Shown: positions 4,401-8,194 of the stretch, one piece after another
Layout of the letters: every line of letters starts with the position of its first letter
Numbering within the stretch: the stretch's first letter is position 1
Assembly: GCA_012512265.1 (NCBI GenBank)
Contig: JAAZEM010000188.1
Span: forward strand, 36,822 to 100,821
DNA length: 64,000 nucleotides
Direction of reading: 5' to 3'
From: Armatimonadota bacterium
GTDB taxonomy: Bacteria > Armatimonadota > JAAZEB01
Position numbers and translations under genes: made by a program
Notes under the pieces: model-generated
Told to the model about the DNA's origin: nothing
Seen by the model: only the letters and a program-made list of their open reading frames with translations
Database searches by the model: none

Positions 4401-4429
4401 TTGACACCAAAGGGGTCTTAGGGTATAGT
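4401..4429 (+). promoter_or_regulatory. sigma70-type promoter of the 4436-4621 RNA
   Basis: TTGACA at 4401-4406 and TATAGT at 4424-4429 are separated by exactly 17 bases. The spacer starts with a CCAAAGG dyad flanked by GAC and GTC. Transcription would start near 4436. A similar TTGAC-CCAAAGGGG core occurs in the promoter at 41494. Confidence 0.75.
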
Positions 4430-4435
4430 AGATTT

Positions 4436-4621
4436 CATGGAGTGGGCGCCGGCCCGCGAGGCTGCAAGGCAGATCGGCCGGGCCGCCCCAAGGCGATGAA
4501 CGCGGATGGATGGGAGGCTGTGAGGCGAGAGCGCTTGCGGAGGCCGCAGGAGGACTTCTTTCCCTCACATGCTGTCCCGATCCAGTGAGGGAGCTCTGGG
4601 TTAGACCGGGCTCCCTTTTTT
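4436..4621 (+). ncRNA. structured leader RNA or small RNA ending in an intrinsic terminator
   Basis: The transcript from the strong promoter carries no plausible gene before a terminator. A long 5' hairpin pairs GGGCG+CCGGCC (4444-4454) with GGCCGG+CGCCC (4476-4488). Three later helices are mutually exclusive: TGTGAGG (4519-4525) with CCTCACA (4563-4569); CCCTCAC (4562-4568) with GTGAGGG (4585-4591); and GGGAGC (4589-4594) with GCTCCC (4610-4615). This 1:2, 2:3, 3:4 layout is typical of transcription attenuators and riboswitches, with the 4781 gene as the likely controlled target. I recognise no known riboswitch, T-box, 6S, SRP, RNase P or tmRNA signature. A stand-alone small RNA remains possible. 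Confidence 0.5.
4589..4621 (+). terminator. intrinsic terminator of the leader RNA
   Basis: Stem GGGAGC/GCTCCC with a 15-base loop, followed directly by six T residues (4616-4621). Its 5' arm overlaps the alternative GTGAGGG arm, so formation of the terminator can be switched. Confidence 0.78.
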
Positions 4622-4780
4622 GTCGGTTGGGAGAGAGCCTTCCAGGAAGGTTCTGAGCGCCCTGCCGGCTCATTCTCAGTGAACTGACAGAGCGCGAGCA
4701 GGCGTAGGATGAGGCATCCGGTGGGAGGATTCCTGCAATCCGTGCCGGGTGCGGCATCTCGTGACGGGAAGGAGACGAGG

Positions 4781-5275
4781 ATGGAACTGAGACGCTTGAC
4801 TTTGGCGGAGCTGTCGCAGTATCTGGAGGGCCGAACCCCGGGCCTGCAAGACCTCGAACCGGCGGATCGCGACTCGGTAGTGCGCATGGCGCGCCGGCTC
4901 GCCGAGCAAGGCATCGCATCCCGCTTTATCCTTTCGGCTGTCCGTGACACCGTCGACCTGATGCGCGCCCCCGAGGTGCCGCCCGATCTGGAGCGGCCCG
5001 CCTCTGTGGAACTCCCTCCGGCCGACGACCGGCAGCAGGCTGCGCGCCGGTTGAAGAGCTATACCCAGGCCACCCTCCGCGAGGCCCGCGCCGCCCGGCG
5101 CAGCAACGAGATCCGCCACATGCGCGGCGTGCTCCGGGGCATCGACCGCGGTCACCTGCGCGAGACGCTCGGTGACGAGGGTGAGAGCCTCTGCCGCGAG
5201 ATCGACACGGTTCTATCGCGTCTGTCCCTCCCTGTGCGTCGCGGCCGGCCGCGCTCCCAACGGATCGCGGCGTAA
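4781..5275 (+). CDS. small helical protein of unknown function
   Basis: 164 residues, strongly charged and predicted almost entirely helical, with no signal peptide or membrane segment. I do not recognise the family. The C-terminus is basic (RRGRPRSQRIAA), which would fit nucleic-acid contact but is not diagnostic. The start at 4781 is favoured over 4709 because AAGGAGA lies 5 bases upstream and the extra N-terminal residues look non-coding. The gene stands alone and follows the leader RNA and terminator at 4436-4621 by about 160 bases, so it may be controlled by attenuation. Confidence 0.68.
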   Translation: MELRRLTLAELSQYLEGRTPGLQDLEPADRDSVVRMARRLAEQGIASRFILSAVRDTVDLMRAPEVPPDLERPASVELPPADDRQQAARRLKSYTQATLREARAARRSNEIRHMRGVLRGIDRGHLRETLGDEGESLCREIDTVLSRLSLPVRRGRPRSQRIAA

Positions 5276-5611: not shown

Positions 5612-8194
5612 GTGAGCGATAGGCTGAAGGAGTATCGAGAGAACCCAACGGCGACGCCGTCTACGATGTTGGCATGGCCGCTGTATGGAGCGGGCCTGGA
5701 GAACCTGGGCGACGAGGGGAAGCCGGTCGAGATGCGCGTGCCGCAGCCGGGGCCCGATGAGCTGCTGGTGCGCGTGGATGCCGCCGGCCTCTGCTTCAGC
5801 GATATCAAGGTTCTGACGCAGGGGAACCAACACCCGCGCATCCTGGGGCGCGACATGGAGCGCGAACCGGTCATCCTCGGGCACGAAGCCTCGGTGACGG
5901 TGGTGGCCGTCGGCGAGAACCGCCGCGGGCAGTTCAAGCCGGGCGACCGCTTCATCGTTCAGGCGGATGTCTACTACAAGGGCAAGAATGTGGCCTACGG
6001 CTACCAGCTTCCGGGCGCCCTCGAGCAGTTTGGCGTCATCCCCAAGGAGATGATCGATGGCGATGAGGGCTGCTATCTGCTGCCCGTGAAGCCGGAAACA
6101 GGCTATGCCGAGGCGGCGCTCTCCGAGCCGTGGGCGTGCGTGGTCGCTAGCTACCGCGCGTCGCACCGGTCAACCCTCCTCAACGGCGGTGCGCTCTGGG
6201 TGGTCGGTGGACCCGCCGCAGCCAGCGTGCCCGCCTCGCTGCATGTCAGCCGTGGCCTGGATGCAGACTCGCATCCGCGCGTCGTCATCCTCACCGATGT
6301 CCCGGCGGCGATTGCCGACCGCCTCGAAGCGCAGGCCAAGGCGGCGGGTGCGACGGTCGTGCGCACCGGGGCGCTTGCCTCGCTGGACCTGGAGGCACTG
6401 AAGGCGGATCAGACCGGTGGCGCGGGGTTCGATGACATTGTGGCCCTTGGCGCGGATGCACCGATGGTCGCGCAGCTGGATACCATGCTGGGCAAGCACG
6501 GCATCCTCAACCTGGTGGGGGCTGCTGACGGCGACGCCTACGTCGAAGTGGATGTCGGTCGCATCCATTATGATTTCCTGGTGCATTTGGGCACCCGCAG
6601 TGATGACATTGCCGAGGCCTACACGCGCTCGCGTTCCTCGGACCTCATGCCGGGCGGCCGCGCCTGGATCTGTGGCGCGGGCGGCCCGATGGGCCAGATG
6701 CATGCCCAGCGCGCCGCCGAGAAGCCGGACGGCCCGAGCCTGGTCGTCGTGACCGATATTGATGGCGAGCGTCTAAATGTCGTGCTGGAGCGTTTCGGCC
6801 CGCTGGCCGAGGCGCGCGGCGCAAAGATGGTTGCCCTCAACCCCAAGGAGATGACGCCCGAGGCGTTCGACCAGGCACTGCGCGAAGTGACGGGCGGCCA
6901 GGGATTCACCGATGTCGCGGTGATGGTGCCGGTTCCGGCAGTGATCAGCCACTGCGCCACGCACCTGAGCGAGAGGGGCCTCCTCAACATCTTCGCCGGC
7001 GTTCCCAAGGGGACGATGGCGCGCGTGCCAGTGCTCGACGCGGTGCGCAAGGACGTGCGCTTTATCGGCACCAGCGGCTCGCGGATCGAGGATCTGAAGA
7101 GCACGCTCGGCGCGACCGAGGAAGGCACGCTCAGCCCCAACCGCTCGGTAGCTGCCATTGGCGGCATCGAGGCAGCGCATGACGGCTTGGCCGCGGTCAA
7201 GGCAGCGCGCTTCCCGGGCAAGATCGTCATCTTCCCGCAGATCCGGAACCTGCCGCTCACGCCGCTTCCGGAACTGAAGGATCGCCTCCCCGAAGTGGCC
7301 GCGAAGCTGAGCCCCGCGGGCGAGTGGACGCGCGAGGCGGAAGCGGCGCTCTTCGAGAAGATGCTCGGTCCAGCGCCTACGCCGAGAGGGCCGAAGTCGC
7401 GCCCCTTTCGTCGATTAGAAGGCCGGACGGCGATGGTGACGGGCGCCGCGCAGGGCCTGGGCGAGGCACTGGCCTCGCGCCTTGCCGCTGAGGGATGCCA
7501 TGTCGCCATTGCCGATATCAACGAGGCGAAAGCGGAAGAGACTGCGGCGCGCATCCGCAAGGAGTACGGCGTCCAGGCCCTCGCCTTCGGCATGGATGTG
7601 ACGGACGATGCCCAGGTTGGCCAGGTGGTCGACCAGGTCGTGGCCGCCTTCGGCGGGCTCGATATCATGGTCTGCAACGCGGGCATTCTGATCGCGGGCG
7701 ATGCTGTGGAGTTTGACGCTGAGAAATGGCGCAAAGTGATCGATGTCAACCTCATCGGTTACTTCATCACGGCGCGGCATGCCGCGCGCGTCATGCAAGA
7801 GCAGCGCCGGGGGAGCATCATCCAGATCAACTCGAAGTCGGGCAAGAAGGGGAGCTTCAAGAACTCGGCCTATGCGGCCAGCAAGTTCGGCGGCATTGGC
7901 GTCACCCAGAGCCTGGCGCTTGAGCTGGCGCCGTTCAACGTGCGCGTCAACTCCGTGTGCCCCGGGAACCTCCTCGACTCGCCCCTGTGGGTGAACAGCC
8001 TCTACGAGCAGTATGCGAAGCGCTGGAACCTCACCGTCGAGGAAGTGCGCCGCAAGTACGAGGAGCAGGTGCCCCTCGGGCGCGGGTGCGCGTATGAGGA
8101 CGTGGCGAACGTGGTCGTCTTCCTGGCCTCGGACGAGTCATCGTACATGACTGGTCAAGCGATCAACGTCACCGGCGGGCAGGAGATGAGGTAG
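5612..8194 (+). CDS. MDR alcohol dehydrogenase-like / SDR sorbitol-6-phosphate dehydrogenase-like fusion
   Basis: 860 residues. Residues about 15-190 resemble the zinc-type MDR catalytic lobe (GLCFSD, ILGHEA, FKPGDR), but the four-Cys structural-zinc lobe is not visible. Two Rossmann-like segments follow (about 195-325, starting WVVGGPAAAS; and about 348-560, starting WICGAGGPMGQ), as if the MDR nucleotide domain were duplicated. The C-terminal 255 residues form a complete classical SDR: TGAAQGLG cofactor loop, CNAG, Ser in INSKSGKKG and Y-AASK. The tail (NLLDSPLW, LTVEEVRRKYEEQVPLGR) is like sorbitol-6-phosphate 2-dehydrogenase. GTG start with AGGGGAG upstream. It probably oxidises a polyol or sugar phosphate; the exact substrate is unknown. 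Confidence 0.88.
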   Translation: MSDRLKEYRENPTATPSTMLAWPLYGAGLENLGDEGKPVEMRVPQPGPDELLVRVDAAGLCFSDIKVLTQGNQHPRILGRDMEREPVILGHEASVTVVAVGENRRGQFKPGDRFIVQADVYYKGKNVAYGYQLPGALEQFGVIPKEMIDGDEGCYLLPVKPETGYAEAALSEPWACVVASYRASHRSTLLNGGALWVVGGPAAASVPASLHVSRGLDADSHPRVVILTDVPAAIADRLEAQAKAAGATVVRTGALASLDLEALKADQTGGAGFDDIVALGADAPMVAQLDTMLGKHGILNLVGAADGDAYVEVDVGRIHYDFLVHLGTRSDDIAEAYTRSRSSDLMPGGRAWICGAGGPMGQMHAQRAAEKPDGPSLVVVTDIDGERLNVVLERFGPLAEARGAKMVALNPKEMTPEAFDQALREVTGGQGFTDVAVMVPVPAVISHCATHLSERGLLNIFAGVPKGTMARVPVLDAVRKDVRFIGTSGSRIEDLKSTLGATEEGTLSPNRSVAAIGGIEAAHDGLAAVKAARFPGKIVIFPQIRNLPLTPLPELKDRLPEVAAKLSPAGEWTREAEAALFEKMLGPAPTPRGPKSRPFRRLEGRTAMVTGAAQGLGEALASRLAAEGCHVAIADINEAKAEETAARIRKEYGVQALAFGMDVTDDAQVGQVVDQVVAAFGGLDIMVCNAGILIAGDAVEFDAEKWRKVIDVNLIGYFITARHAARVMQEQRRGSIIQINSKSGKKGSFKNSAYAASKFGGIGVTQSLALELAPFNVRVNSVCPGNLLDSPLWVNSLYEQYAKRWNLTVEEVRRKYEEQVPLGRGCAYEDVANVVVFLASDESSYMTGQAINVTGGQEMR

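Follow-up and report, generated by a model that had tools for sequence, protein, structure and literature searches.

The window analysed here, a stretch of 64,000 nucleotides on contig C140 of a 5.0-Mb Armatimonadota assembly (G000), holds, directly ahead of an uncharacterised gene, a short RNA equipped with a promoter and terminator of its own, raising the question of whether this RNA is a regulatory leader of the gene or a transcript that merely adjoins it. An earlier note on this DNA had proposed a near-consensus promoter driving an RNA of 185 bases that ends in a terminator with six T, and all three elements were recovered (Table 1), the RNA extending from about 4436-4437 to 4621 (about 186 nt). 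The exact promoter pattern TTGACA-17-TATAGT occurred 12 times in the G000 genome and not once as its reversed control, so that it represents a working promoter class in this organism, and only one of these 12 promoters, the one considered here, has a terminator within 420 nt downstream. The RNA folds into a 5' hairpin, a long hairpin II and the terminator hairpin followed by six T; as a whole it folds better than shuffled sequences (z -2.55), and amongst the single modules, scored against dinucleotide-preserving shuffles, hairpin II alone does so.

Table 1. Sequence features of the leader candidate and of the gene that follows it (positions within the window).
Feature	Position	Strand	Remarks
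Promoter TTGACA-17-TATAGT	4401-4429	+	11/12 consensus matches; 0.1 expected
5' hairpin (proposed 'sensor')	4443-4490	+	z -0.02 against shuffles; not conserved
30-codon open frame overlapping hairpin II	4497-4588	+	AAGG before ATG; not conserved
Hairpin II, long imperfect stem	4507-4584	+	-41.0 kcal/mol; z -3.71
Helix 1:2 within hairpin II	4519-4525/4563-4569	+	TGTGAGG/CCTCACA
GAGAGC, 5' side of hairpin II	4527-4532	+	found in all three genomes
Apical element of hairpin II	4539-4548	+	GGAGGCCGCA
Segment 3, proposed antiterminator partner of 4561-4568	4585-4592	+	GTGAGGGA; not supported
Intrinsic terminator hairpin plus six T	4587-4621	+	hairpin 4587-4617, T4616-4621; -21.0 kcal/mol
Ribosome-binding site AAGGAG	4769-4774	+	GGAAGGAG also before the gene in G001 and G002
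Uncharacterised 164-aa protein, predicted all-helical	4781-5275	+	C-terminal tail PVRRGRPRSQR

Each of the family's three genomes keeps the order of promoter, RNA, terminator and gene; they represent three genera, the two relatives being Armatimonadetes bacterium NC_groundwater_1073_Ag_S2p5_69_131 and AS09scLD_256 (G001 and G002 respectively). Promoter hexamers and their spacing are identical in both relatives, whose RNAs measure about 187 nt (G001) and about 277 nt (G002). The terminator sequences are clearly similar (z 6.1 for the window against G001 and 4.8 against G002, the third value being 2.9) and share the element GGGAG(C/T)TC. The equivalents of hairpin II gave stability z-scores of -2.26 in G001 and -2.77 in G002 and have a common apical element, GG(A/G/C)(G/A)GC(C/T)GC(A/G), their sequence similarity being weak (z about 2, shuffle fractions 0.04-0.05). 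The unit is preceded in G000 by a metallophosphoesterase gene, in G001 by rpsU on the opposite strand and in G002 by no assignable gene, and is followed by an alcohol dehydrogenase fusion in G000 and G002 and by recO in G001; since most flanks differ and the unit is kept, the RNA and the gene travel together.

The earlier note had suggested looking for covariation in homologous leaders. Because plain MAFFT alignments misaligned either GAGAGC or the terminator, we used a hand-made structural alignment of the three sequences, padded with N, in which the terminator, the GAGAGC stem and the lower part of the hairpin II stem had 97% of their cells paired, compared with 39-68% when the partners were slid. 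The pairing thus held up, whereas covariation proper amounted to two pairs changed on both sides, a count equalled in 53 of 500 column shuffles, so that three sequences cannot give strong covariation. In leave-one-out covariance models the held-out member was the best independent match, G002 being found at E 6e-5 (next unrelated match 0.05) and the window leader at E 3e-5 (next match 0.08), a result that is somewhat circular in that the hand alignment comes from the same three sequences and part of the score from the terminator. No further site was found when the three-member model was run over 291 genomes of the phylum with Infernal's stricter filters. The RNA is single-copy and seen only at the orthologous gene in these genomes, nine of which carry the gene, and no such RNA lies upstream of the six more distant gene homologues from other families. 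Conservation of the RNA without the gene would, according to the earlier note, have marked it as a stand-alone transcript; it was not found apart from the gene in the 291 genomes. Nucleotide searches of the relatives returned, apart from the own copy, only short chance matches, and a search for more homologues gave the same two alone amongst genome contigs and none amongst viral contigs.

In each of the three genomes an intrinsic terminator lies on the same strand between promoter and gene, the association with the downstream gene is conserved, and no promoter common to all three was found between terminator and gene. Taken together, the sequence comparisons favour, by a slight balance of probability, reading the element as a 5' leader of the gene, with an intrinsic terminator that acts prematurely, and not as a stand-alone RNA. 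An alternative antiterminator is common to many attenuators, though not to protein-dependent antitermination, and as no conserved fold of this kind was found in the three leaders we call the element an attenuator-like leader candidate and not a proven attenuator.

The most serious competitor is a stand-alone small regulatory RNA that happens to adjoin the gene, the gene itself owing its transcription to leakage or to a promoter that escaped recognition, which we regard as possible and less likely than a leader. It would account for the full-strength promoter and terminator, for a default fold that wholly favours termination, for the missing antiterminator and for a weak promoter-like site after the window terminator (CTGACA-15-TAGGAT, 9/12), and the terminators of the three genomes, at -21 to -24 kcal/mol, resemble ordinary 3' terminators, for which the reported mean is -20.2 kcal/mol as against -16.5 kcal/mol for 5' regulatory terminators (PMC2965389), although high G+C content may be the reason for this strength. 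Against it, the same gene always follows the RNA in the same orientation, although the flanks have changed, no promoter-like site follows the terminator in G001 (where the 71-nt gap was tested) or in G002, and the RNA body evolves fast. Its overall form, about 190 nt with its own strong promoter, a strong terminator and two to three hairpins, is that of stand-alone terminated bacterial small RNAs, from which it differs in its constant position directly upstream of one gene. Two known RNA classes were considered and rejected, as neither the 6S RNA (RF00013) nor the bacterial SRP RNA (RF00169) covariance model matched at the leader; the genome's 6S RNA lies at C67:581-764 and its SRP RNA on C84. 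A second 6S-like match at C3:15297-15488 scored 44.3 bits against a cut-off of 46.4, and G000 may perhaps possess two 6S paralogues (both 6S loci being our L041 and L042).

If the RNA is a leader, the strong promoter at 4401 would transcribe hairpin II and then the terminator, the majority of transcripts would stop at about 4621 as the 186-nt RNA, and the downstream gene would be expressed only through read-through. We infer that termination at 4621 is partial and regulated. Regulation would most likely proceed via an agent acting on hairpin II, and not via a self-contained switch between alternative helices or a metabolite; candidates for this role are proteins, possibly including the basic-tailed one that the gene itself encodes, and antitermination factors of RNA polymerase.

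The encoded protein was described as uncharacterised in the earlier note and is so still: no Pfam or NCBIfam family matched above cut-off. Its orthologues in the two relatives are 59% and 57% identical. The structure model is all-helical (pLDDT 84, pTM 0.43) and gave no significant PDB match; DarP/YjgA ranked first in Foldseek at E 0.86 and was rejected as a structural relative, profile comparison giving it no support. All three leader-bearing species have the basic tail PVRRGRPRS(Q/H)R, which is missing from each of the five remoter homologues that were aligned, a correlation over one clade that offers only a lead towards autogenous binding. A more specific version of the leader reading is a family-specific autoregulatory pair, in which this helical protein, as the member of a new family, would have acquired its arginine-rich RGRP tail along with the terminated leader and would govern its own read-through by binding hairpin II at the conserved GAGAGC; this version is at present doubtful. 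As to gene neighbourhoods, three genomes of greater distance (L034, L037 and L038, the arrangement in L034 being read from a cut flank only) have the homologue and an ECF sigma-70 gene in divergent orientation; in L034, L036 and L037 the homologue stands beside a gene for a cysteine-rich protein without assignment (CPTC..PCC), and a functional link with these neighbours is possible. In G001 (L043, 3278-5507) the neighbourhood is of a translation and repair type, the gene lying between recO and the oppositely oriented rpsU, which is next to HD-domain and ybeY-like genes. The fusion downstream of the gene in the window (5612-8194), also found in G002, joins a zinc-type alcohol dehydrogenase region to a short-chain dehydrogenase over 860 aa.

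The earlier note had gone further and read the RNA as a switch of mutually exclusive helices, in which segment 1 pairs with segment 2, 2 with 3, and 3 with the terminator, so that a ligand or event trapping segment 1 would let 2:3 form and block termination. Segments 1, 2 and 3 are indeed exactly complementary as described, the perfect 8-bp Watson-Crick run between 2 and 3 having a shuffle frequency of 0.038 (0.17 if G-U pairs are allowed), and in G001 and G002 the hairpin II 3' arm is complementary to the terminator 5' arm in other, non-homologous ways. By duplex energy between these arms, however, the pairing is within chance in all three genomes (shuffle fractions 0.28 in the window, 0.35 and 0.24 in the relatives), so that the 2:3 match is at most marginally above chance, and at the homologous positions it is broken in both G001 and G002. 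Forcing 2:3 costs 12.8 kcal/mol once segment 3 has just been made and 14.6-16.7 kcal/mol after the terminator exists; with this penalty of 12-17 kcal/mol relative to hairpin II plus terminator, and a predicted pair probability of 0, the default state is termination and read-through needs an additional factor. Helix 1:2 persists merely within a longer hairpin; by eye, it is replaced at the same place in G001 by GGCCG-TTT with GAA-C-CGGCC and is nearly lost in G002; counted in a fixed register across the three leaders, this replacement was not significant. A self-contained attenuator of this kind is therefore improbable, and of the attenuator proposal it is the unit of promoter, structured RNA, terminator and gene that is borne out by conservation, whilst the switch logic is not.

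Ribosome-mediated attenuation, in which translation of the 30-codon frame would open hairpin II, is about as improbable: the frame spans hairpin II, ends at the base of the terminator and has AAGG ahead of its ATG, but it shows no run of regulatory codons and has no counterpart in G001 or G002, where frames differ in position, length and sequence.

Least credible of all is a metabolite riboswitch of unknown class with the 5' hairpin, the strong 'sensor' of the earlier note, as its aptamer. Riboswitches usually do place a structured 5' domain before a terminator, as is the case here, but the hairpin showed no excess stability in any of the three genomes (z -0.02 in the window, -0.57 in G001 and -0.80 in G002, against dinucleotide-preserving shuffles), so that base composition explains it, as it does not explain hairpin II. 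The 5' part of the RNA has no sequence similarity between the window and either relative and varies from about 65 to 160 nt in length across the three genomes. Searches of Rfam at gathering and relaxed thresholds gave no match to the leader except chance-level ones to sX12 and sR2, in agreement with the earlier view that no known RNA class is recognisable. With no conserved aptamer-like core in the three leaders, a riboswitch is unlikely.

Amongst known systems, the leader candidate resembles the uncharacterised premature-terminator leaders listed by Naville and Gautheret (PMC2965389) in having a terminator between promoter and gene, linkage to one gene family and a fast-evolving body, and differs from them in that its terminator is as stable as 3' terminators and that it is confined to one Armatimonadota family, with no identified antiterminator. 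With autogenous attenuators of the ribosomal-protein type, such as that of Bacillus subtilis rplJL (PMC4538822), it shares a leader hairpin before an intrinsic terminator and, as a conjecture here, the hairpin as a possible target of the encoded basic protein. Mutation has shown the antiterminator to be the default in rplJL (PMC4538822), whereas here the terminator is the default and no antiterminator is conserved.

We found no studies of RNA regulation in this phylum in a literature search, and the leader is a candidate for a new, lineage-restricted attenuator that is ordinary in kind. Premature terminators of uncharacterised kind are common, so this leader does not change general understanding. 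If confirmed, it would add a lineage-specific transcription attenuator to the phylum Armatimonadota, and it points to testable parts, namely hairpin II, the terminator and a protein without a known fold.
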